Shown piece after piece: positions 644 through 25,669 of a stretch of DNA of 37,516 nucleotides. Below the pieces are notes generated by a model that was not told the DNA's origin, did not search any database, and worked only from the letters and a program-made list of their open reading frames with translations. The DNA comes from Lachnospiraceae bacterium (GTDB lineage Bacteria > Bacillota > Clostridia > Lachnospirales > Lachnospiraceae). Every line of letters begins with the position of its first letter. The first letter of the stretch is position 1. The stretch covers positions 1 through 37,516 of the forward strand of contig JAFTWC010000060.1 in NCBI GenBank assembly GCA_017465475.1, written 5' to 3'. The position numbers and the translations under genes were made by a program.

Positions 644-3232
644 TTATAATTTCTTATCCAAGTATTCTTCTCGTATCATCTCTTCCAGTGCTTTTACTTC
701 CTGTTCAAACTCCCTGGCGGATACCATATGACAACCCTGACCGGTAATAATCACCTGTTCCAAGCGGTCTGAGGTGGCCACTCTCACATAGTGTTTTTTT
801 CCGTGTTCGTGAGCAAAGCGTTCGATATAGGTGTCGGCGGTTTCCGCTTCTTTTGTATAGACCACATGGATATTGTGGTGGTCTAAAAACTCTGTGGCGT
901 GGTTTTGTACCCGGTAAGCATCAAATACCACAATCAGCTCACATTTTTTCATGGCCTGATAGTTGCACATCATGTCCAAAAGTTTGGTACGGGCAGCATC
1001 CAGGTTGGAGGCTGCCAACTCGTTTAATTCATTCCAGGAAAAAATTATATTGTATCCGTCCACCAAAAGGTAGGAGGTGCCGCTGTTTTGCGTGGTTTCC
1101 TTGCCTTTGTAGCCGTAAGAAACCGCCTCGATTTTGGTTTTGTTAAACGGGCGGTAGTGTTTTGTTTCTTTGGTATTGCTGTTGGCAAAGCCGGTGCGAC
1201 GAAGGATGGCATCGATTTCTTCTGTACCCAAAGCCGCATCCAAGGCAGCAATGGTATTTTTTACCGGCTGTCCGGAAGGGGAAGAATTGTCTGGAGTTCC
1301 TTTGGTGCGGGCAGCCAGAATGCTTTCGATATGCATATGGTCAAACACTTCATACCAAGGAACGATGTCACCGCTTCCGTGGGAACAAAATACGGAGGAT
1401 GACGGATTGTGGGTGTCTCTGTCCGGGTCGTAGCCCATGGAAGCTATGACTTCTTCTGCGTTATGACAAGGTTTGTATCCGCCCTGACTAAGATAGAGCT
1501 TTCCGTGACCTTTGGTATAAGCAATAAATTCGCTTTGGTAATCGCTAAAGGCAGAAACGGGAGCACTTCCGCTGATAACCGCAAAATCTTCTTCCATGTC
1601 CGCATCTTTTAATTCAAAATCGGCATGCATCCGCTCTAAGTCTGTCATGGCACGGCCCACAGCGGTTCTCGGCAGTTCCAATGTAAAGCTGTAGTAAGGC
1701 TCTAAAAGAACAGACTCCGCCTGCATAAGCCCCTGACGGATGGCACGGTAGGTTGCCTGTCTGAAGTCTCCGCCTTCGGTATGCTTCTGGTGAGCGCGAC
1801 CGCCTACCAGAGAGATCACTACATCGGTGAGTGGAGAACCGGTCAGGACACCGCGATGGGTCCGTTCGTACAGATGAGTCAGGATAAGGCGTTGCCAGTT
1901 GCGGTCAAGGCCGCTTCCTTCGCAATCCAGTTTACAGGTAATGCCGCTTCCCGGACTTCCCGGTTCCATGATCAGATGCACTTCGGCATAATGACGCAGA
2001 GGCTCAAAATGACCTACACCTTCTACGGTAGTTGTAATGGTTTCTTTGTACACAATATTACCGGAACCGAAGTCTACAGAAATGCCGAAACGTTCCGCGA
2101 TGACCGTTCGCAGGATCTCAATTTGAACGGCTCCCATGACCTGAAGATGAATTTCTTTTAGAAATTCATTCCAAACCACATGAAGCTTCGGGTCTTCTTC
2201 TTCCAACTGGCGAAGCTTCGGAATGGCCAGTAGCGGATCGGTTCCGTCCAAAATAAGGAGCTTGTAGGTCAAAACCGGCTCAAGCAATGGGATATTAGAC
2301 GGGACATCGGTTCCCAGAGATTGTCCCGCAAAGGAGGAATCAAGGCCGGTAACAGCGCAGACTTCACCTGCGGTCACTTCGTTTGCGGTGGTATATTTTT
2401 CACCGGAATACAGCCGGATTTGATTGATTTTTTCCGTGTCGTTTATAGACATACGGGAGCTTAGTGTACCCCCGGTAATTTTCAAATGAGTCAGACGGGT
2501 GCTCTGATTGTCTCTGGTGATTTTATATACTTTTGCACCGAAGGCAGTAGGATACTCTTTCGGTTTCATATAGGTAGCGAGACCGTCGATGAATTCTTTG
2601 ATTCCGTTCATTCGGAGGGCGGAACCGAAAAAGCACGGGAACAGCTTTCGCGTTGCAATGACGGATGCAATGTCGGTATCCGTCAGTTCTTCCCCTGCCA
2701 GATGTTTGTCCAAAAGGGTCTCATCCGTGAGAGCAATTGCTTCCGTATCCATGGCAGATTTGAAGGAAAAGTCTACGATGGAATCGGAGAGCATATTCCG
2801 GAGTTGCTCTAACAGAAGCTGCCGGTTTGTGCCCTGTTGGTCCATTTTATTGACAAAAATAAAAGTAGGAATGCGATAGTGTTTTAAGAGTTGCCACAAG
2901 GTTTTTGTATGCCCCTGTACGCCGTCTGCACCGCTGATGACCAGAACGGCGTAGTCCAACACCTGAAGGGTTCGCTCCATTTCTGCAGAAAAGTCCACAT
3001 GGCCCGGTGTATCTAAGAGTGTAACGGAGTACTTGTCCAATGTAAATCTTGCCTGCTTTGAAAAAATGGTAATTCCTCGGGCACGTTCCATAGAGTTGGT
3101 ATCCAAAAAAGCATCCTTGTTATCCACACGACCAAGAGACCGGATGGTGCCGGTCGAATAAAGCAGTGCTTCCGATAGTGTTGTTTTTCCGGCATCTACA
3201 TGTGCCAGCATACCGATAACAAGATGGTTCAT
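644..3232 (-). CDS. TetM/EF-G-like translational GTPase fused to a C-terminal Rae1/YacP-type NYN nuclease domain
   Basis: 862 aa. Residues 1-~590 are an EF-G/ribosomal-protection-type GTPase: G1 AHVDAGKTT at 10-18, RARGITI at 50-56, G3 DTPGH at 74-78, G4 NKMD at 128-131, then domains II-V. After a low-complexity linker (~640-720), residues 721-862 match the B. subtilis YacP/Rae1 fold, with acidic residues D725 (LVDGYN), D771 (VVFDA), D800 (AETAD) and D822 (ATSD). Rae1 is known to cut mRNA in the ribosomal A site; the GTPase family enters the same site. A GTPase that delivers a nuclease to ribosomes is my inference. The domain IV tip at 477-488 is unlike the YYSPVST loop of TetM, so tetracycline resistance is doubtful. 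The start has an AGGAG site 7-8 nt upstream. The gene follows the VanZ-like gene by 34 bp and is probably co-transcribed with it. Confidence 0.93.
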   Translation of the reverse strand: MNHLVIGMLAHVDAGKTTLSEALLYSTGTIRSLGRVDNKDAFLDTNSMERARGITIFSKQARFTLDKYSVTLLDTPGHVDFSAEMERTLQVLDYAVLVISGADGVQGHTKTLWQLLKHYRIPTFIFVNKMDQQGTNRQLLLEQLRNMLSDSIVDFSFKSAMDTEAIALTDETLLDKHLAGEELTDTDIASVIATRKLFPCFFGSALRMNGIKEFIDGLATYMKPKEYPTAFGAKVYKITRDNQSTRLTHLKITGGTLSSRMSINDTEKINQIRLYSGEKYTTANEVTAGEVCAVTGLDSSFAGQSLGTDVPSNIPLLEPVLTYKLLILDGTDPLLAIPKLRQLEEEDPKLHVVWNEFLKEIHLQVMGAVQIEILRTVIAERFGISVDFGSGNIVYKETITTTVEGVGHFEPLRHYAEVHLIMEPGSPGSGITCKLDCEGSGLDRNWQRLILTHLYERTHRGVLTGSPLTDVVISLVGGRAHQKHTEGGDFRQATYRAIRQGLMQAESVLLEPYYSFTLELPRTAVGRAMTDLERMHADFELKDADMEEDFAVISGSAPVSAFSDYQSEFIAYTKGHGKLYLSQGGYKPCHNAEEVIASMGYDPDRDTHNPSSSVFCSHGSGDIVPWYEVFDHMHIESILAARTKGTPDNSSPSGQPVKNTIAALDAALGTEEIDAILRRTGFANSNTKETKHYRPFNKTKIEAVSYGYKGKETTQNSGTSYLLVDGYNIIFSWNELNELAASNLDAARTKLLDMMCNYQAMKKCELIVVFDAYRVQNHATEFLDHHNIHVVYTKEAETADTYIERFAHEHGKKHYVRVATSDRLEQVIITGQGCHMVSAREFEQEVKALEEMIREEYLDKKL

Positions 3233-3266
3233 AGTGATTCTCCTATTGTAACTGCGGGGGTTGTAT

Positions 3267-3833
3267 TTATTCTGCGCAGGTTGTGTTCTTAGATTTTAGC
3301 TTACGGTAATAACAGAATAAAAGGGTACTGCAAGCAAACAGGATTCCTACGGAATCTACCAGTACATCCGTGGGGCTGCCGCATCGTCCCGGCACGAAGG
3401 TTTGGTGAAACTCGTCGAGAGCGGCACAAATAACAGAAAGCAGAAAAGTAAGCAAAACGGGAGCAATGCAGTGATGCCGATTGGAGGTAGTTGCTTGAAC
3501 CGGCGTGGCATTTGCCGAAGAGCATGCAAGGGAGCATTTCGGTTTATGAAAAACCAATACCCGCAGAGGAAGAAAAATACTCAGTGCCAGGAAAAAATAC
3601 TCTGTCACATGAGCGGCTTTTCGGACCAAAAACTGCATGGATTCCGCATGGGAATAAAAAGCAGGTTCTGCGAGATTCCATGAAAAAAGGCGGTCCGCAA
3701 AAGAAAGGATGGCACAGCAAATCCGAAAACTGAAAGAGCCGGAAGTCTCACCGTCCTGAGCGGAAAACCCGAAGATAAGGAATAATATAACCAGTGCCGG
3801 AAGCACGGAACAATAACGCAATACTTTTTTCAT
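3267..3833 (-). CDS. VanZ-like family membrane protein
   Basis: 188 aa from the ATG at 3833, chosen because GAGG lies 6 nt upstream. A longer frame exists but would begin inside the upstream terminator. There is a hydrophobic segment near the N-terminus (residues ~8-25) and further membrane segments in the middle and at the end. The VanZ signature is clear: RKAAHVTEYFFLAL in the first half and DEFHQTFVPGR...SPTDVLVDSVG in the second. VanZ of the Tn1546 cluster gives low-level teicoplanin resistance, but most family members are housekeeping membrane proteins of unknown role. There are no van genes here, so no resistance call is justified. It sits 34 bp before the GTPase-NYN gene. Confidence 0.9.
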   Translation of the reverse strand: MKKVLRYCSVLPALVILFLIFGFSAQDGETSGSFSFRICCAILSFADRLFSWNLAEPAFYSHAESMQFLVRKAAHVTEYFFLALSIFLPLRVLVFHKPKCSLACSSANATPVQATTSNRHHCIAPVLLTFLLSVICAALDEFHQTFVPGRCGSPTDVLVDSVGILFACSTLLFCYYRKLKSKNTTCAE

Positions 3834-3848
3834 AGGAAACCTCATAAG

Positions 3849-3899
3849 AAAGAGTGCTTCTGCTGTCGATTCACCGGGACAGGCACCGAAGCACTCTTT
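3849..3899 (-). terminator. Terminator after the esterase gene
   Basis: A 12-bp perfect stem (AAAGAGTGCTTC with GAAGCACTCTTT) and a 27-nt loop lie between the esterase stop and the VanZ-like start. Minus-strand transcripts leave it through CTTTCTT. It separates the esterase from the VanZ/GTPase pair, perhaps with read-through, because no clear promoter is visible in front of the VanZ-like gene. Confidence 0.7.
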
Positions 3900-3917
3900 T
3901 GTAATCAATACGAAAAC

Positions 3918-4748
3918 TTATTTAAAAATGGCACGTAAGAAGTTGTTTAATCCGGCGCGGATGGCAACTGCATTGTGGTCTGCTTCCGGAACTTCGTACC
4001 AGGTGTGAGCAACACCGTTTCTCTCCATAATGTTATGATAACCTAACGGGAATTGACCAACGGTACCGTCTTTGCTACCGCAGCATACCATAAGAACCTT
4101 CGGTTCGAAGTCTTTTCCTGCAAAAGTCATTTCGTCTTCCTGCATTTGGCCTTCGTGCTTCATGGCCCAGTCTTGTGCCGGAGTTGCCCCCGGTGCCGGA
4201 GCAATGGCGCCCATGTAAGCAAATAAGTCCGGGCGGGTGAAACCGATATACAGAGTTTCTCTTCCGCCCATGGAAAATCCGGCAATGGCCTGATGCTCAC
4301 GGTCGGTATAGACAGAGTATTTGTTTGCAATAAACGGCATTAAGTCCGTAACTAAATCATTAATAAAATTGTCATATGGTTTTACTGCCTCCGGATTAAA
4401 TGCCGGCTGCTGGTTCGGGTCGGAGGATGCATACATGTGGGGAAGAACAACAACCATTTCTTCTGCAGTGCCGTCTGCGGCATGGTTTCCTAAAAGTTCC
4501 AAAAGCTTACGCTCGCCGTCTCTTAAATGCACATATTCATCACCGAAAATACCATGTAATAAGTAAAGAACCGGATATTTCTTAGAAGCGTCGTAATTTG
4601 GCGGAAGTACTACATTGGCACCGCGGTCTAAGCCGGTGGTGGTAGAAAAGTAAGTTTCATGTACAACTTCCGGATAAGTAACGTCGGCACGCTTTTCCAT
4701 AGCGGATTCCGGACATGTCGGTTCGATTGTAATTCCATTCATTATCAT
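3918..4748 (-). CDS. Esterase, CE1/feruloyl-esterase-like alpha/beta hydrolase
   Basis: 276 aa, no signal peptide, so probably cytoplasmic. The fold is the putative esterase/CE1 family: oxyanion region LYLLHGIFGDE (62-71), nucleophile elbow GFSMGG with S159, likely acid D227 (CGSKDG) and H258 (EADHN). CE1 members hydrolyse acetyl or feruloyl esters on plant polysaccharides, and close relatives are cut from xylanases. A role in deacylating imported xylan oligosaccharides fits a gut bacterium but is inference, and the natural substrate is unknown. The start is well supported (GGAGG 7 nt upstream). It has its own sigma-A promoter (4809-4837) and its own terminator, so it is probably monocistronic. 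Confidence 0.9.
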   Translation of the reverse strand: MIMNGITIEPTCPESAMEKRADVTYPEVVHETYFSTTTGLDRGANVVLPPNYDASKKYPVLYLLHGIFGDEYVHLRDGERKLLELLGNHAADGTAEEMVVVLPHMYASSDPNQQPAFNPEAVKPYDNFINDLVTDLMPFIANKYSVYTDREHQAIAGFSMGGRETLYIGFTRPDLFAYMGAIAPAPGATPAQDWAMKHEGQMQEDEMTFAGKDFEPKVLMVCCGSKDGTVGQFPLGYHNIMERNGVAHTWYEVPEADHNAVAIRAGLNNFLRAIFK

Positions 4749-12785: not shown

Positions 12786-15521
12786 CTACCGTGAAGTAAA
12801 CCTTATTGAGTAGTTCAGTTCTGTGGTACCGTAGCCGATGCCGTGTGTATCAAGGTAGAGGACAACATGTTCGTTTTCGTTACAACCTTCAAGAAGACGG
12901 GTAATATCTGCCTTTGCAGCTTCATAAAGGGTGTAGACGCCCTGCTCGGTCCAGACACGAACATCCGGGTAGCCGGAGGCAAAGGTTTCGAAATCCTCCA
13001 TGGAATAAATATGGAGAATCGGATAGAAATCATTTTCCACCCACCGGTTTGTACCCATGGCCAAATCGTGATACAGGCTACTATATCCTTGTAAATCAAG
13101 CATAATCGAAGATGCCCAGACGGAGGAGTAAAGCTGTTTGTGCACCGGAGTTAAAGCTAATTCTATGGTGCCGTCCGCCGCGTTCTTTGCTAAAGATAAT
13201 TTGCCTACAAGAGAGGTTTCTTTGGTGGCACGGTCGGTTTTTCTGATATACATGGTTTGAATATCACCAATCATGGCATAGTCATACTGTGTCGGATCAT
13301 AGAGACCGTAGGAGGTGTCGTTTTTGTAGTCGTAAACTACGATACCAAGGTGGGTAGCATTTTCCCCCAGGCTGACAGTGGTACAAAGCTCCGGAAAGCT
13401 GTCGTTGTTTAAATCTGCCCAGTAACCGGCCCAAATGGTACTGCCGGAAATCAAGGTTTTGGTACCTTTTGAGGTGGTGGCAGTAATCTTCTCCGAATCG
13501 GCAAAAAAGGTGACTCCCGGAAATTCCGGCAACTCTGTTTTTAACACACCGTCCGGATATTTCTCCCGATGATAGAAGTAGTTTACCCAAACCATAGCCC
13601 TTGGAGCGGGAGTTTTCAGAGCGGTCAGGTCGGTAGGCACTGTTTTCCATTCTGCCGGTGTGTCGGAAGGGGATTGCCCTTGGGCTTTGGCTCGATTGGC
13701 GTATTCTAAAGCTGCCATGTGTTTCTGATAAATGGCTAACCATTCATCGGCCGAGCCCCACCAGGTATCCGGATCATAGTCGCCTTCTTCCGTACCGATG
13801 CCGGTGATACGGGCGCAAACCGATGCCATAAAATATTCCCGTATACCATAGGAACGGGCCTTTTTCAGTTCCTTTACGAAACAGTCCACGGTCTTTTCTC
13901 CGCCGAGAAGGAGAAGCTCGTACAATTCAGGATTGTCCTGAATGATATCGTTTGCATTTGTCTGATCTCTGACAGCAGAGGCCAGGATGGAAAGCAATGC
14001 TTCTTCGGTCAGTGTCTCGGGCACATTTTCACGGACGATGGAGGTGTTAAAATCAAGCCACAAGTATTTTCCTTCCTCCGGCTCTGCCCGGAACCGGTAC
14101 TGTCCTTCCTTGGAAAAATCAAAATCTGTCAGTAAATAAGTTTTGGTCATTTCTGTTTTCGCCGGCATGGAATTTAAAATTGCCGGAAAGAGCAATTCTT
14201 CTTTTGCACAGCTTTCCCAAGTGTCGTTTTCGTAGTAAAGAACGTCGAACCGATCTGTAAAAGTAAAGTCGGAATTATAGTTATTATTGTTCCATTGCAC
14301 CGGAATTGTTATGTTTGACAGGTTATCTTTCAAAAAGTAGGCCTGAGGCTCTGCTGACAGAGAAACGCCGATGTAGTCTGAGCCGGAGCCGGTCATTTCA
14401 AAAGAGAGAAATGCGATTTTTTCTTCTTTTGGCGGTTTTGGAGCAACCGGATTGGTCAAAAAGCAGACCATAACCGTAAGACAGGAAACCACAGCCAGTA
14501 CAATAACCCAAAATGCAGGCTTTTTATAGTGAAGCACATTTTTGATTCTCTTTTTTACATGTACTTCGCCAAAAGACAGCGGACAAACAGAGATCATTTT
14601 CCCGGAAATACTGTAGTTAAGCAGTGTAAAGGAATAGGACTTGATGGAGTCCGTATCCATGTTGCGAATGACCCGCTCGTCACAGGCCAGCTCAATATCC
14701 TTACATAAAAAGATGTATGCAATCCAAAGTACAGGATTAAACCAGTAAAGGGAAAGAAGGAGAAACCCAAGAGGTTTCCATACATGATCCAAACGTTTTA
14801 AGTGTGCTTTTTCATGGGCAATGACATGCTCTGCCGCATCGGCCTGAATGGAAGACGGAAGAATAATCCGCGGGCGGAAGGTGCCGAGAATAAACGGCGT
14901 TTCCACCCGGTCGCAAAGCCAGATGTTATCCGCATACCAAACCGCTTCCCTTGTCTTTTTTCTGATGTGCAGGTAACTGATGATGCCGTAAGACAGCATG
15001 CAGAGTACTCCCGGAAGCCATAGCTTTGCCAATAGGCGCATCGCGCTGTCAGCAAAAGAGGACGCCGTAGCTTTTGCCGACAGAGGATGAATCAAAGGAG
15101 TGTCAGAGAAGTTCTCAGCAGGTACGGTGTGCGACGGAGAACCTTCAACAGATACGGATGCGGACAAATCCTTCAAAGGTACGGTATCCTGCATGGGCTC
15201 TGTAACTTCGGTATCTTCTAAAATTATGGGTGCATTTTGCATGGAGTCCGGTTCCATATAATCTTCCGAAGAATCTGCGGTGGTTGGCGGTGTGCCGGAT
15301 TGTATCTGTAAGGCATTGGTATCCGCAAGTGTTGACGGAATCAGACTAAAAGGACTTTCCAAGGAAATCGGAAATATCAGCCGGATGGCTACAAAACCCC
15401 ATAAAACACAGATGAGTGCTTTCGGCGCCCGTCTGAGAAACAGGCGGAGTCCCAGAACCACAAGTACTAAAAGGCTGGCGGTTAGACTCATCATAAAAAA
15501 CATAAGAAAAACCTTCTCCAT
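12786..15521 (-). CDS. BlaR1/MecR1-type M56 membrane metallopeptidase with a large novel extracellular domain
   Basis: 911 aa. TM1 (~8-29) and TM2 (~35-52) are followed by an extracellular, Ser/Pro/acid-rich loop (~55-160), TM3 (~167-187), the zinc-protease domain with AHEKAHLKR (HEXXH, H236/E237/H240) and downstream ELACDE (277-282), then TM4 (~337-356). In BlaR1, ligand binding outside activates this protease, which leads to loss of BlaI from DNA. The C-terminal ~550 residues normally carry a penicillin-binding sensor of ~250 residues. Here no SXXK/KTG set is apparent. Instead the region is longer, with an Ig-like first part (365-500), a tryptophan-rich middle and an FG-GAP-like WADLNNDSFPEL. 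The signal is thus unlikely to be simply a beta-lactam. It follows blaI with a 2-nt gap. Confidence 0.9.
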   Translation of the reverse strand: MEKVFLMFFMMSLTASLLVLVVLGLRLFLRRAPKALICVLWGFVAIRLIFPISLESPFSLIPSTLADTNALQIQSGTPPTTADSSEDYMEPDSMQNAPIILEDTEVTEPMQDTVPLKDLSASVSVEGSPSHTVPAENFSDTPLIHPLSAKATASSFADSAMRLLAKLWLPGVLCMLSYGIISYLHIRKKTREAVWYADNIWLCDRVETPFILGTFRPRIILPSSIQADAAEHVIAHEKAHLKRLDHVWKPLGFLLLSLYWFNPVLWIAYIFLCKDIELACDERVIRNMDTDSIKSYSFTLLNYSISGKMISVCPLSFGEVHVKKRIKNVLHYKKPAFWVIVLAVVSCLTVMVCFLTNPVAPKPPKEEKIAFLSFEMTGSGSDYIGVSLSAEPQAYFLKDNLSNITIPVQWNNNNYNSDFTFTDRFDVLYYENDTWESCAKEELLFPAILNSMPAKTEMTKTYLLTDFDFSKEGQYRFRAEPEEGKYLWLDFNTSIVRENVPETLTEEALLSILASAVRDQTNANDIIQDNPELYELLLLGGEKTVDCFVKELKKARSYGIREYFMASVCARITGIGTEEGDYDPDTWWGSADEWLAIYQKHMAALEYANRAKAQGQSPSDTPAEWKTVPTDLTALKTPAPRAMVWVNYFYHREKYPDGVLKTELPEFPGVTFFADSEKITATTSKGTKTLISGSTIWAGYWADLNNDSFPELCTTVSLGENATHLGIVVYDYKNDTSYGLYDPTQYDYAMIGDIQTMYIRKTDRATKETSLVGKLSLAKNAADGTIELALTPVHKQLYSSVWASSIMLDLQGYSSLYHDLAMGTNRWVENDFYPILHIYSMEDFETFASGYPDVRVWTEQGVYTLYEAAKADITRLLEGCNENEHVVLYLDTHGIGYGTTELNYSIRFTSR

Positions 15522-16159: not shown

Positions 16160-16639
16160 ATGAAAGTAACGGAAACAGTATTTTTGGAGTTGTTTGAAAA
16201 ATTTAAGAATACCGTGTATGCGGTTATATTTAACTATGTGAGAAATGCAGAGGATGCCAAAGATCTTTTGCAGGAAGTGTTCCTGAAACTGCTTGGGAGT
16301 GATGCCGAGTATAAGGATGAAGAGCATGTAAAAGCATGGTTAATTCGTGTATCCGTAAATATGAGCAAGAATTATCTTCGCAGCAGAAAACGTCTGTCGG
16401 ATGAACCGTTATCGGAGGAAATTCCGGCGAAGGAGCAACAGGGACAGAATGAATTGCTTTCTATGGTACTTGCATTGCCGGAAAAGTACAGGGTACCGCT
16501 GCATTTGTTTTATTATGAAGAGTACTCGGTAAAACAGATTGCAAACGTGATGGAACTGCCGGAGGCAACTGTTAAAATACGTTTGAAACGAGGTAGGGAA
16601 AAATTGGGACAGTCTTTGCGAAAGGAGGAGTGGTTCTGA
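16160..16639 (+). CDS. ECF-type RNA polymerase sigma factor
   Basis: 159 aa. Region 2 (~10-75) includes NAEDAKDLLQEVFLKLL and AWLIRVSVNMSKNYLRS. Region 4 (~100-155) includes LPEKYRVPLHLFYYEEYSVK and ATVKIRLKRGREKL. This is the small two-domain layout of ECF sigma factors. It would redirect RNA polymerase to envelope-stress or similar promoters when released from the membrane protein encoded next. Its TGA overlaps the ATG of that gene, a sign of coupled translation. The ribosome site is weak (AAAGGG 12 nt upstream), in contrast to the strong AGGAGG before the next gene, which suggests that the inhibitor is made in excess. Confidence 0.95.
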   Translation: MKVTETVFLELFEKFKNTVYAVIFNYVRNAEDAKDLLQEVFLKLLGSDAEYKDEEHVKAWLIRVSVNMSKNYLRSRKRLSDEPLSEEIPAKEQQGQNELLSMVLALPEKYRVPLHLFYYEEYSVKQIANVMELPEATVKIRLKRGREKLGQSLRKEEWF

Positions 16640-17772
16640 TGAGCGTGAAGATGGAATATAAGCAACAGGTAGATGCGCTTTGTAAGGGAAACGTGAAGGT
16701 GACCGGAGAAGAGTTGCTTTTACTTGCAAAGGAAGGCAATAAAGGAGAGTCCGCAAAAGAAAGAAGTAGAGGTGAGAACCTGGTTCAGTTTACAACACGC
16801 CAACAGTCACACTTCTCATGGAAACAATACGCGATGGTGGCTTGTATTATAGTAGTGTGTTCGTTGGCGCTGACAACAACGGCTTTGGCAGCAACCGGAA
16901 TGCTGGGTGATGTGTTACGAAAGATTTTTAAGGACGAAACCAGTGCACAGTTGGTAGAAGATGGTTTTGTTTACGTGGGCGATCAGTCCGGTACGGATGG
17001 GATTTTCCGTGTGGATTTTATTGGTGTAACGGGAGATAAAAGTGTTCCGAAGATGTTCTTTGATGTGTACGTGGAAGATACGGAGCTGGCTGAAGATTAT
17101 GATGAAATCGGCTTGTGGGTGAGTACCTACGAAACGAGGGAGCCGGGGGGAGAAGAAATTGAGATTTGGTCTCCTGCCTACGGAACAAAGGATGCGGAAA
17201 ACCAGAATCTGTATCATGTGGTCAGAGAAGGCGGTACGGTGCGGAGAGTCGATGGACGGCCTGTGCGTGTAGTGGTTACCAATGTGATTTTCAATCCGAA
17301 TCAAATGGATATGGTAGATTACGAAGTGAACATTGAGTTTTCCATGGATGTTCCGTCCACGGCACTGCATAGTGCAACGATGGAAGATTATGGCGGACGC
17401 CGGATTGACTTTGAAGATACTTATTATTATTTGACTTACATTACTTACGGGGTATATCATACGGAATTTGATCTTTCTTTTGATTATGACGGTGTGTCTT
17501 TTGAAGGACAGTATTCGAGCCCCTATGGGCTGGAAAATATTTTGAGACCGTATTATAAGGATTTTATTTCCCAAGTGACGTTTGTGGTGGACGGAGTAGA
17601 GTATAAGGTGATAGACAATGAGGACGGATACGGTTATATTTGGTACGATGAAAGCGGAGAGTCGGGGGTCCCGAAGCGGTGTTATGTACATCCGAGGTTT
17701 CCGGCGGTGGACTATGAAAATGCCAAGGATATCCGGATTCTGTCGGGAGGAAAGGAATACAGATTAAAGTAA
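16639..17772 (+). CDS. Putative membrane-bound anti-sigma factor with DUF4179-like ectodomain
   Basis: 377 aa from the ATG at 16639, which overlaps the sigma stop; a GTG 9 bases earlier sits inside the AGGAGG site. Residues 1-~60 are cytoplasmic, charged and long enough to bind a sigma factor. There is one TM segment (~64-85, ending ALAA), then a ~290-residue extracellular domain. That ectodomain starts DETSAQLVEDGF and continues with FFDVYVEDTELAEDYDEIGL. The operon position and topology fit an anti-sigma factor, and similar ectodomains follow ECF sigma genes in many Clostridia. No HXXXCXXC zinc anti-sigma motif is present. The ectodomain is clearly paralogous to part of the next gene product. 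Confidence 0.82.
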   Translation: MSVKMEYKQQVDALCKGNVKVTGEELLLLAKEGNKGESAKERSRGENLVQFTTRQQSHFSWKQYAMVACIIVVCSLALTTTALAATGMLGDVLRKIFKDETSAQLVEDGFVYVGDQSGTDGIFRVDFIGVTGDKSVPKMFFDVYVEDTELAEDYDEIGLWVSTYETREPGGEEIEIWSPAYGTKDAENQNLYHVVREGGTVRRVDGRPVRVVVTNVIFNPNQMDMVDYEVNIEFSMDVPSTALHSATMEDYGGRRIDFEDTYYYLTYITYGVYHTEFDLSFDYDGVSFEGQYSSPYGLENILRPYYKDFISQVTFVVDGVEYKVIDNEDGYGYIWYDESGESGVPKRCYVHPRFPAVDYENAKDIRILSGGKEYRLK

Positions 17773-17797
17773 GTATAGGAAAAGAAAGGAAAGTAAG

Positions 17798-20002
17798 ATG
17801 GGAAAAAAGAGAAATAAAAACCGGTGGCTTGCCTTAGTTGCGGCGCTTGTAATCGGGATATTGACAGGGTGCAACGGTACTGTGGAGACGACAGAGGGGA
17901 ATGGACAGGGAATCATAAAAGATGAAACGAATGCAAGTCTGACAGCCACAGCGGCACCGACCGCAACACCGACGCCGGAGCAGAGAGAACTGAGCAATCA
18001 CATCAGTCAGTGTCATAAGGATGAAATATCGGCAGGGTTGGTAGAGAGCGGGTATTATCACGAGCTGAATCAAACTTTTGCGGAGGGAGCATTTCAGATT
18101 GAACTGAAAGCGCTCGTGGGAGATACGGAAAACCAAGTGCTGGTGTTTGATGTTCGCGTAGAAGAGGAAGAACTGACGGAAACGTATGATGAGCTGGAGC
18201 TGTCGGTATATTTCATGAATGAACGTGATTATGATGAGTTGGAATCAAAGTGGACCTATGCTGCATACGGAAAACAGGATGAAACGGATAAATCGCTGTA
18301 TCACGTGACGATACAGGGCGTATTGTTTTTGACAGCAGAGGAAATTCCGACGGTAGTGGATCTTCAGAGTATTACCTTCGGAAAAAAGACGTTGGAACCG
18401 AAGCAGTACAGTATAGATACTCCGGAGTATCGTTTTGTTGTATCGAAACAGAAGTTTTATCCGGCAGAAAGAAGAAGGTACGAATCTGTGTCCCTGGTCT
18501 ATAAAGGGAGTGAGTGTAATCTTTATGAAGCATATTTCGGACAGTACGAAACGATGTTATTTTTTGATGTGACGATGAATCCGGACAATATTACGACAGG
18601 AATACAAAGGAAAAATGATATTCAAACCAAATGGAGGGAGTTTGCTTCCAATGTGATGCTGGAGGTTGACGGAGTCATTTATCATTATGAAGGGGATGCT
18701 TATTTATCGGCGAGCGAAGGAGACGAGGAGTGTTCCGGAAATGCACATCTGAGTTTTCCGGGAATCGATTTTGGGAGCGCAGAGAAGGTTGTATTGTGGC
18801 TGGATTCCAAAGGATATGATTTAAAAACCGGAGAAGTTTTTGACGGGGTGCGCACCGAACAGGAGCCGGTTGCCGGATTTAATGAACCGTTTACTGTGGA
18901 AAGAGGAAAGGCAGTGACAGTGGGACGAGAGGGAATTACCCTGCGTTTGCTTAATGTGATACACGAACCGGATAATACGTGGATTGCGTTTGAATTGATG
19001 GTAGACGGAACACTGCATCAGGGCAGCGGTGTATGTTATGCAGACGAAACCCGTCTGGTACAACATCCGTTTACAAAGCATGTGGTGAGATATGTAGTCA
19101 GTGAAGGTGATAAAGTTACACTTATGCTGACAGAGGATTACCAGGTTCAAAAGCCGTTGGTTTTATCCGGGAATGCAGAGGATTTGTATGTGACGGAGAA
19201 ACCGGAGTACATAGAGTCGGAGAATACTATTATGTTTCTTGATAAGGGTGTGGAAGTTCCGGGGAATCTGCCGGAACAGATGGAATCCATACTTGCCATG
19301 ATAGAAGAAGAAACCGGGTTTGAATTTTTTAACGATACGGGTTATAGTACTTATGTCAGTGATGCCCGCCATGTGCTTTGGGGACAGGACGGATTCCTTG
19401 GTGTGGATATGGAACAGGAGAAGTTTCATATTTACGTAGTGCCTCACGATGTATGGTGGCCGAGCAGTAGCGGAGATATGATTGTTGTGGGACCGGAGGA
19501 CATCCGATTCGGAATGGGAGAAGGAAATACGGTAATCCATGAGATGGCACACGCAGCAGCTCAAAGAAACGGGGTACAGATGAATCGTATCCTCGACGAG
19601 GGATTTGCTACCTACATTGAAGGAAAGGTTTCTGAAGAAGATAAGCTGTTCCGGTTTGACTATGATGCTCGTGAAAATTATGAGAAGGTGTATGCGGATG
19701 CAGAAATTACCGCTGAAACGGCGGAAACAGAGTTTGTGAAAGATGTGATTGATGATTACAATTATGTTTACGGCTACTGGTTTATTACCTACTTAATGGA
19801 GAATTACGGCGATGACATTTATCATAAGCTGCTGGCGGCAGCCAATGCAGAGGCAGACATGTATCAGGGTGAGATGACAAAGGAAGAAATGGTGCCGATT
19901 GTAAAAAGTGTGACATCAGAGACCGTTTTTGAAGAGTTTGGTGCCTGGTTTGAAGATATGGCAAAGGATTGGCCGAGAGCGACCATCCACTACAGGGAAT
20001 AA
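17798..20002 (+). CDS. Lipoprotein with anti-sigma-like ectodomain and C-terminal gluzincin zinc-peptidase domain
   Basis: 734 aa. A signal peptide ends in lipobox LTGC (C25), followed by a Thr/Ala/Pro linker. Residues ~73-345 repeat the ectodomain of the preceding protein: DEISAGLVESGY, LVFDVRVEEEELTETYDELEL, AAYGKQDETDKSLYHV, and VDGVIYHYEG near 290. A second beta-rich part (~365-460) follows. The C-terminal ~240 residues hold HEMAH (H581/E582/H585) and DEGFATYIEG with E601, the HEXXH...E pattern of gluzincin peptidases. It should be anchored on the outer membrane face, like the ectodomain it copies. Roles as the protease that cuts the anti-sigma factor, or as a competing binder of its ligand, are inference. 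GGAAAG lies before the start. Confidence 0.85.
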   Translation: MGKKRNKNRWLALVAALVIGILTGCNGTVETTEGNGQGIIKDETNASLTATAAPTATPTPEQRELSNHISQCHKDEISAGLVESGYYHELNQTFAEGAFQIELKALVGDTENQVLVFDVRVEEEELTETYDELELSVYFMNERDYDELESKWTYAAYGKQDETDKSLYHVTIQGVLFLTAEEIPTVVDLQSITFGKKTLEPKQYSIDTPEYRFVVSKQKFYPAERRRYESVSLVYKGSECNLYEAYFGQYETMLFFDVTMNPDNITTGIQRKNDIQTKWREFASNVMLEVDGVIYHYEGDAYLSASEGDEECSGNAHLSFPGIDFGSAEKVVLWLDSKGYDLKTGEVFDGVRTEQEPVAGFNEPFTVERGKAVTVGREGITLRLLNVIHEPDNTWIAFELMVDGTLHQGSGVCYADETRLVQHPFTKHVVRYVVSEGDKVTLMLTEDYQVQKPLVLSGNAEDLYVTEKPEYIESENTIMFLDKGVEVPGNLPEQMESILAMIEEETGFEFFNDTGYSTYVSDARHVLWGQDGFLGVDMEQEKFHIYVVPHDVWWPSSSGDMIVVGPEDIRFGMGEGNTVIHEMAHAAAQRNGVQMNRILDEGFATYIEGKVSEEDKLFRFDYDARENYEKVYADAEITAETAETEFVKDVIDDYNYVYGYWFITYLMENYGDDIYHKLLAAANAEADMYQGEMTKEEMVPIVKSVTSETVFEEFGAWFEDMAKDWPRATIHYRE

Positions 20003-24965: not shown

Positions 24966-24991
24966 TAGCATTGTGGAAGGGAGGCAGTCCG

Positions 24992-25669
24992 ATGGTATTA
25001 TATCATGGCTCTCATGAAATTGTGGAATCACCGACATATGGCTTGGGTTCCGATAAAAATGATTACGGAAGAGGATTTTACTGCACTGAAATGCCGGAAC
25101 TGGCGAAGGAGTGGGCATGTCCTACCGTTAAGAACGGCTTTATGAATCAATATGAACTGGATGACAGGGAATTGAATGTATTGCATCTGAACACGGAAGA
25201 CTATCATATTCTTAACTGGATGGCACTTCTTCTGAAAAACCGGATATTTCAGAAACGCTCTCCTATTTCCAGAGCTGCAAGTGACTATATTTTGGGAGAG
25301 TTTTTGCCGGACACCTCCGGTTTTGATGTGATTCGCGGGTATCGTGCCGATGATTCTTATTTTTCCTATGCAAAGGATTTTTTGAACAATGTCATATCGG
25401 TTCATCAGTTGTCTCGTGCCATGCGATTGGGAGAACTTGGGGAACAGGTGGTTCTGATGACGCCAAAAGCGTTTGAGAAAATAAAGTTTACCGGATATGA
25501 CATCGTAGAAGGCAGCATTTATCATGCAAGGCGGATGGAACGAGAGGAACGGGCACGAAAGGCATATCTGTACAATCACGGAACAGATTTTTATATGGAC
25601 GTAAACGATTTATTTGTGCGCGATATTATAACCGGGCAGGTGAAAAACGATGATGCACGCTTACGATGA
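24992..25669 (+). CDS. DUF3990-family protein, predicted ADP-ribosyltransferase-like toxin
   Basis: 225 aa from the ATG at 24992 (GGAGG upstream). The N-terminus reads VLYHGSHEIVESP, then DYGRGFYCTEMPELAKEWA, the DUF3990 pattern. LYHGS and GFYCT resemble the His and Tyr motifs of ADP-ribosyltransferases of the H-Y-E type (H5, Y30), with a possible third residue near E151 (GEQVVLM). The middle has DVIRGYRADDSYFSYAKDF. Members of this family often sit beside a small antitoxin-like gene, as here, where the HTH gene overlaps by 20 bp. Toxicity and enzyme activity are inference. The last ~20 residues, RDIITGQVKNDDARLR, overlap the next start. Confidence 0.8.
   Translation: MVLYHGSHEIVESPTYGLGSDKNDYGRGFYCTEMPELAKEWACPTVKNGFMNQYELDDRELNVLHLNTEDYHILNWMALLLKNRIFQKRSPISRAASDYILGEFLPDTSGFDVIRGYRADDSYFSYAKDFLNNVISVHQLSRAMRLGELGEQVVLMTPKAFEKIKFTGYDIVEGSIYHARRMEREERARKAYLYNHGTDFYMDVNDLFVRDIITGQVKNDDARLR

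Follow-up and report, generated by a model that had tools for sequence, protein, structure and literature searches.

A clostridial fusion of an EF-G-like GTPase and a Rae1-type nuclease as a probable stand-in for stand-alone Rae1

The window analysed here is a stretch of 37,516 nucleotides (nt) of a Lachnospiraceae bacterium (GCA_017465475.1, contig JAFTWC010000060.1). Close to its start, an intact frame on the minus strand (644-3232, ATG start) encodes a protein of 862 amino acids (aa), in which an EF-G-like translational GTPase is joined by a disordered linker to a nuclease domain of the Rae1/YacP type (Table 1). A first-pass annotation, made from the sequence alone, had described an intact GTPase, a linker and a complete NYN domain, and this is borne out by the single open reading frame (ORF), whose strand it had left unstated, by the Pfam domains and by the disorder of the linker. 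In B. subtilis, Rae1 is described as a translation-dependent endonuclease of the ribosomal A site (sections of PMC6613710, PMC10100781 and PMC12320835). The architecture itself is already known: passages of PMC4342817 (Atkinson 2015) report a fusion of a Tet-like translational GTPase and a YacP-like NYN RNase in Clostridiales, count ten species and suggest a resistance mechanism. The window protein very probably belongs to this NYN-bearing clostridial 'Tet' group, and what is new is evidence for what the fused protein does. It is read here, with moderate confidence, as a GTPase-borne Rae1, an A-site mRNA endonuclease which stands in for rae1.

Table 1. Coordinates of the fused gene, its parts and its upstream neighbours in the window
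Feature	Positions	Strand	Evidence
Fused gene: EF-G-like translational GTPase and Rae1/YacP NYN nuclease, 862 aa	644..3232	-	ORF and Pfam
G domain with G' insert, residues 1-223; AHVDAGKTT P-loop, DTPGH, NKMD and SAL intact	2564..3232	-	Pfam and alignment of 101 fused proteins
EF-G domain II, residues 233-306	2315..2536	-	Pfam
EF-G domain III, residues 340-389	2066..2215	-	Pfam 26.4 bits (cut-off 27); fold backed by Foldseek
EF-G domain IV, residues 392-505	1718..2059	-	Pfam
Loop III of domain IV, GRAHQKHTEGGDFR, residues 478-491; subfamily signature, differs from Tet and EF-G	1760..1801	-	Alignments
EF-G domain V, residues 508-591	1460..1711	-	Pfam
C-terminal extension, residues 592-645; folded in the model	1298..1459	-	Alignments and predicted structure
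Disordered linker, residues 646-720	1073..1297	-	pLDDT mostly <50
Short linker helix, residues 670-680, conserved in fused proteins	1193..1225	-	Alignment and predicted structure
NYN_YacP (Rae1-type) nuclease domain, residues 722-859	656..1069	-	Pfam and structure-sequence match
D725, aligned with Rae1 D7	1058..1060	-	Invariant 101/101
D771, aligned with Rae1 D53	920..922	-	Invariant 101/101
D800, aligned with Rae1 D81	833..835	-	Invariant 101/101
D822, aligned with Rae1 D104	767..769	-	Invariant 101/101
Shine-Dalgarno-like AGGAGA, 6 nt ahead of the ATG	3239..3244	-	Read directly
VanZ-like membrane protein gene, 34 nt upstream of the fused gene	3267..3908	-	ORF list, Pfam
Putative esterase gene, 9 nt upstream of the VanZ-like gene	3918..4748	-	ORF list, Pfam

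The nuclease half scores 170.6 bits as NYN_YacP against a curated cut-off of 24.6 (Pfam, E 3.8e-50). Compared alone with solved structures (E up to 0.01), it matches only the B. subtilis YacP/Rae1 structures 5mq8 and 5mq9, with a best E of 4.9e-24. The four acidic positions named in the first-pass annotation are all present and match Asp residues of Rae1, whose numbers were counted from the alignment to these two structures. Their conservation among orthologues of the same architecture had been named beforehand as one of the points on which the annotation could fall, and all four are invariant in an alignment of 101 fused proteins, which comprises the window's own, 20 from relatives and 80 from named genomes. 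On the GTPase side, the AHVD.GKTT P-loop is found in 100 of 100 rows (one row is cut at its start) and DTPGH and NK.D in all 101, so that neither active site has lost its motifs. The 80 loci from named genomes, among them Desulfosporosinus, Clostridium, Fusibacter, Anaerovorax, Oscillospiraceae and many Lachnospiraceae, are the best-scoring of at least 587 relatives ranked by score to the whole chain, and the all-fused result among them is therefore no measure of how frequent the fusion is. A frame artefact or chimaera was ruled out by a protein of 86% identity in a congener and by the fused architecture in 80 of the 80 named-genome loci kept.

The GTPase half shows the G-domain motifs and domains II to V of the EF2 family: Pfam matches were obtained for GTP_EFTU (residues 2-223, E 5.5e-51), EF-G_D2, EFG_IV (392-505) and EFG_C (508-591), and EFG_III, which stays below its bit cut-off, is supported by the fold. 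The AlphaFold2 model, built on a 57-sequence alignment, has a mean predicted local distance difference test (pLDDT) score of 83.7 and a predicted template modelling (pTM) score of 0.64. Both ends are well folded, pLDDT falls below 50 at residues 647-673 and 675-715, and a short helix is formed at 670-680. EF-G/EF-2 family structures rank first among the 50 Foldseek matches listed for this model; the NYN domain folded alone without an alignment gave a mean pLDDT of 41.5 and no usable model. Among the 101 fused proteins, the span from H634 to L722 measures 70-143 aa (median 82), and the helix pattern is found in 94.

The fusion was followed across a class sample of 393 genomes and a family sample of 150 genomes. 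An NYN match is present in 250 of the 393 class genomes, and in 245 of these it is the only one. The 150 NYN places that were tallied fall into frames of at least 700 codons (81) or of at most 230 codons (65), with four between. Adding the frames from the GTPase search, at least 125 class genomes carry the fusion. The other 100 NYN-bearing genomes were typed via the GTPase table as far as it allowed; 60 remained, the four odd frames included, and 39 of these are stand-alone by exclusion. The 268 genomes not counted as fused include 65 listed as stand-alone, 39 more by exclusion and 21 NYN-bearing ones assigned to neither kind. More than one NYN match occurs in five class genomes: the extra match is of about 21 bits and below the cut-off in G159, G212 and G246, G407 holds two small NYN fragments as a remnant besides its fused gene, and G321 is the only one of the 250 with both a fused and a stand-alone gene intact.

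In the family sample, 138 of 150 genomes have an NYN match. Their 141 rows lie in frames of at least 780 codons (127), at most 230 (nine) or between (five), and three of the nine short rows are a contig-edge fragment (G442), a piece of the gene of G540 and the split gene of G445. Two rows in one genome were found for G510 (adjacent, one broken frame), G540 (pieces on two contigs) and G442. The 12 family genomes without NYN also lack the GTPase, which fits the loss of one fused gene. An independent-pairs test found six pairs on supported branches, which were opposite in 5.9 of 6 on average (median p 0.03); its stand-alone rows were preselected for rae1, so that half of the contrast is built in, and G247 was counted although its rae1 does not lie beside rlmB. 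As support for replacement, this test is weak. The genome counts are free of its selection flaw, and related genomes in them are still not independent of each other.

That the fused nuclease does the job of Rae1 is best supported by the emptied site between rlmB and sigH. According to the relevant sections of PMC6613710 and PMC12320835, rlmB (yacO) and rae1 are co-transcribed in B. subtilis, and mutants of the two genes place them in the same pathway (for the latter, PMC10100781 as well). An rlmB and/or sigH homologue accompanies the stand-alone rae1 in 17 of 18 stretches, two of which hold only one of the pair; G247, whose rae1 is located elsewhere than rlmB, has neither. The space between rlmB and sigH is the usual, not strictly defining, place of rae1, and the fused gene of the window is not found there. 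Of 20 fused genomes inspected, 11, with that of the window among them, have sigH immediately behind rlmB and no NYN between the two; measured to the longest-frame start, these gaps are -4, 3, 34, 38, 38, 76, 79, 86, 118, 202 and 278 nt. In G407, a gap of 725 nt contains a decayed rae1 (L222 2308-2606), next to which the genome has the fused gene as a further NYN carrier, at a place of its own; in G321, an intact rae1 occupies a gap of 735 nt, and a fused gene is present as well. In seven of the 20 fused genomes, neither sigH nor NYN follows rlmB within a stretch of about 1.5 kb; in G116 this stretch measures only 261 nt, and its result carries little weight. The control genome G002, which belongs to the window's genus and whose RlmB is 91% identical to that of the window's genome, has rae1 filling a gap of 606 nt, and the fused gene was not found in its 86% complete assembly; G247 served as the second control. 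The rlmB-sigH sites look like stages of a swap: rae1 only, both genes, the fusion with a decaying rae1, and the fusion with the site closed up.

A tree of 75 NYN domains places 41 fused rows and one split row in a single clade (support 98/95). Nearest to it are the stand-alone Rae1 proteins of the window's own family (92/86), those of other families lie further off, and fused rows of several other families are nested inside the clade. The family coded f1 in these trees is taken to be Lachnospiraceae from its named neighbours. The mixed family f35 has its fused member G058 inside the clade and its stand-alone members G088, G111 and G156 outside; families f34 and f58 also hold both kinds, as judged by frame lengths. 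We read this as one fusion that probably occurred next to Lachnospiraceae, followed by horizontal transfer among families of the Clostridia. The split row comes from G445 (L236 3947-6632), where the fused gene is present as two ORFs of 711 and 190 codons which overlap by 23 nt; this is either a real split or an assembly error. Two ORFs upstream of it are equal in length (213 and 276 aa) to the upstream neighbours in the window.

Which GTPase carries the nuclease was judged from profiles, loops and trees. The nearest NCBIfam equivalog is tet_protect, which spans residues 5-580 with 422.8 bits (cut-off 775); the Tet(M) model gives 218 bits (cut-off 1420) and the EF-G equivalog 261 bits (cut-off 659.4). 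By sequence, the solved structures nearest to the whole chain are TetO, TetM and EF-G. The fused protein shares the five-domain layout and about 29% identity over the GTPase half with Tet(M) and Tet(O), and the alignment extends to residue 586-589. Unlike the fused protein, however, Tet(M) and Tet(O) have other domain IV loops, lack its C-terminal extension, fall into a separate clade and carry no nuclease. Loop III of domain IV reads GRAHxKHTEGGDFR in the fused proteins, compared with ..YYSPVSTPADFR in Tet(M)/Tet(O) and ..SYHEVDSSEMAFK in EF-G. Instead of the SP.STPADFR-type loop (SPVSTPADFR in Tet), the window protein has GRAHQKHTEGGDFR at equal aligned length, and a non-Tet sequence is found here in all 101 fused proteins and all 11 unfused relatives aligned. 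The passages of PMC4750697 that deal with loop III name it as the loop that matters most for the function of Tet(M), whose activity is abolished by shortening the loop; an active triple loop III mutant is cited there as well. Since Tet(M) tolerates changes in this loop and its length is the same here, the loop sequence alone is no proof against tetracycline protection. By the sequence features tested, the GTPase is not a Tet protein, and a role in resistance is unlikely. The label 'EF-G/TetM-like' in the first-pass annotation is accordingly right for the five EF-G-like domains (residues 1-591) and, as a statement on function, is not supported by the loop, the tet_protect score or the separate clade.

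At the end of domain V, C589 is invariant in the fused proteins; in the extension behind it, C616 is invariant as well and H634 is present in 100 of 101. This extension is absent from Tet(M/O) and EF-G and present in nine of the 11 unfused relatives aligned (G247, G201, G030, G561, G456, G432, G451, Paenibacillus cellulosilyticus and Ligilactobacillus salivarius). In G037, the most distant of the 11, no such extension can be recognised, and the truncated ORF of G487 ends before it. The three residues (window 1298-1468, residues 589-645), near-invariant in the fused proteins and most unfused relatives, possibly form a metal site or a structural cluster. The unfused 'HTxGGDFR' GTPases of Clostridia and Bacilli share the loop I and loop III signatures and 42-49% identity over the GTPase half (37% for G037), but have no nuclease. 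In a tree of 61 GTPase rows, built by a quick method and including one long branch and some rows of odd composition, the three tet rows (tet(M)/tet(O)/tetB(P)) lie outside the group of fused and unfused proteins (97*), and the fused GTPase halves need at most two changes. The GTPase is treated here as a member of a distinct subfamily of translational GTPases, which may correspond to the NCBI 'translation factor GTPase family protein'.

Unfused relatives (E 1e-140 to 1e-190) occur in six class genomes that lack NYN altogether and in 17 for which a stand-alone rae1 is listed; in G247, G201, G030, G456, G561, G432, G451 and G487, the stand-alone rae1 is located elsewhere in the genome. An obligate partnership of unfused GTPase and stand-alone Rae1 was considered and dropped because of the six class genomes with a GTPase and no NYN. 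The L. salivarius protein has no NYN domain and is placed among the basal fused rows in the GTPase tree. It is encoded on plasmid pLS2102-15_1 (PLSDB; L254 1477-3411) and annotated as TetM/TetW/TetO/TetS tetracycline resistance, its loop III not being of the Tet type; this is possibly an over-annotation.

Homology together with the replacement of rae1 points to a Rae1-like role of the nuclease half. To this extent the earlier interpretation, an EF-G/TetM-like GTPase with a Rae1-type nuclease, is supported by the mutual exclusion, the emptied rlmB-sigH site and the decayed rae1; a TetM-like function is not supported. The fused protein resembles Rae1/YacP of B. subtilis (5mq8/5mq9) in its NYN_YacP domain, the four acidic positions, the adjoining clade and the genomic stand-in, but it differs in sitting on an EF-G-like GTPase with a long tether and outside the rlmB-sigH operon. 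Compared with the group of Atkinson 2015, the present analysis adds a widespread replacement of rae1 and a GTPase that is not of the Tet loop type. Among the papers listed by searches of open-licence PubMed Central, no other was found, by title and abstract start, to treat the fusion, and the replacement of rae1 is not claimed as unreported.

EF-G-type GTPases enter the ribosomal A site, and we infer that the nuclease may be delivered there in a GTP-driven manner. In the proposed mechanism, the nuclease half would cut the A-site mRNA of paused ribosomes, thereby starting mRNA decay and ribosome rescue. Less certain is the contribution of the GTPase half, which might bind the factor site and the A site of paused ribosomes like EF-G/Tet and might empty or reset the A site. 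After GTP hydrolysis and release, the tethered nuclease, at high local concentration, might then move into the emptied A site, a distance for which a tether of about 80 residues could be long enough. Since the decoding centre probably has no room for domain IV and the nuclease at once, a sequential order of 'clear, then cut' would be expected. The truncated complex left by the cut could be handed on to trans-translation. The window's genome encodes SmpB, and no transfer-messenger RNA (tmRNA) was found above the cut-off in its incomplete assembly. A more far-reaching version is plausible and is offered tentatively: a self-contained, GTP-driven 'clear and cut' machine, in which the GTPase would displace or translocate the A-site occupant, the Rae1 domain would cut the exposed codon and the product would be a substrate of trans-translation. 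This machine may have had a single origin next to Lachnospiraceae, spread across families of the Clostridia and displaced the ordinary Rae1, with all stages of the swap still visible.

The suggestion of Atkinson 2015, by which a tetracycline-type resistance protein with an added RNase acts on rRNA or drug-blocked ribosomes, is improbable in our view. It can draw on tet_protect as the nearest equivalog, on TetO and TetM among the nearest solved structures, on the filing of the clostridial members under Tet in the passages of PMC4342817, on the family name given to the L. salivarius plasmid relative, and on the equal length of loop III together with the tolerance of this loop in Tet(M) (as cited in PMC4750697). 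Against this stand the tet_protect and Tet(M) scores far below their cut-offs, the non-Tet loop III throughout the 101 fused proteins and 11 unfused relatives, and the position of the three compared tet genes outside the clade. The fused gene is furthermore mostly single-copy and near-universal in the family (138 of 150 genomes, with 127 of 141 rows of fused size), and it replaces rae1. The 34 nt between the upstream gene and its ATG are too few to accommodate a leader attenuator, which also counts against resistance. Still less credible, and in fact very unlikely, is the older YacP prediction (quoted in the consulted part of PMC4342817) that the nuclease half has rRNA or tRNA, and not A-site mRNA, as its target for maturation or cleavage. 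The fused gene does adjoin an rRNA/tRNA end in the window; however, no neighbour family is conserved beside it in the loci compared, its NYN domain groups beside stand-alone Rae1 and stands in for the latter in the genome, and the B. subtilis homologue is described as an A-site mRNA endonuclease (sections of PMC6613710 and PMC12320835).

A fusion of convenience, in which the nuclease acts like free Rae1 and the GTPase has a separate job, is rather unlikely, though less so than these two explanations. The long disordered linker, the apparent natural split in G445 (711 and 190 codons) and the occurrence of unfused GTPases without NYN and of stand-alone Rae1 without the GTPase would all agree with it. 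On the other hand, two proteins that are both expected in the A site were joined once and have been kept fused across many families, and the linker helix is kept in the fused proteins, and also on the GTPase side of the split gene, but is absent from the nine unfused tails compared. The GTPase is also missing from the 12 NYN-less family genomes, which is equally expected from the loss of the whole gene.

Several observations weigh against the fused protein as a GTPase-borne Rae1 or limit how far this reading carries. No activity of any fused protein was found in the literature searched (open-licence PubMed Central). The nuclease has no fixed position in the AlphaFold2 model, as its pTM score and the low pLDDT of the linker indicate, and on steric grounds it is doubtful that domain IV and the nuclease occupy the A site simultaneously. 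Mutual exclusion shows redundancy of the nucleases and not that the GTPase aids the nuclease. The six NYN-less genomes with the GTPase imply that this subfamily has its own use without a nuclease, and no such GTPase was found at 1e-60 in 42 of the 65 genomes listed with a stand-alone Rae1, so that Rae1 does not need it. The 12 family genomes with neither half indicate that the function is dispensable. Furthermore, G442, with a fused gene and a contig-edge fragment, may be a further case of two NYN genes in one genome, and the incompleteness of G002 makes the absence of the fusion there uncertain.

The VanZ-like gene upstream probably belongs to the same transcript as the fused gene, and it is not a conserved neighbour of fused genes. 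Excluding the gene itself and the frames inside it, no family occurs in more than 18 of 100 fused loci, the most frequent one being generic ABC ATPases. The contig starts with the 3' end of a 23S rRNA gene (1-250), which is followed by tRNA-Asn and tRNA-Cys (region 1-552), and the fused gene points towards them; a 5S rRNA was not recognised between positions 250 and 360. Further into the window, a 911-aa protein on the minus strand (12786-15521) carries a BlaR1-type M56 peptidase domain within the first third of the chain and shows no Pfam match at 1e-5 in the remainder. Two long ORFs of 380 and 734 aa on the plus strand (16630-20002) are likewise without a Pfam match at 1e-5, and a DUF3990 protein (24971-25669, plus strand) is encoded near a CCA-adding/poly(A) polymerase-type gene and an APH-type kinase gene.

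By which route Rae1 gets into the A site, and how it is recruited to paused ribosomes, is to our knowledge an open question. A natural fusion that has displaced Rae1 across much of the class singles out a translational GTPase as a candidate partner of Rae1, and it provides a single polypeptide on which the question of Rae1 recruitment can be tested. It also suggests a likely function for a gene that is near-universal in the family and could be misread as a tetracycline resistance determinant, of which the L. salivarius plasmid relative is probably one case.

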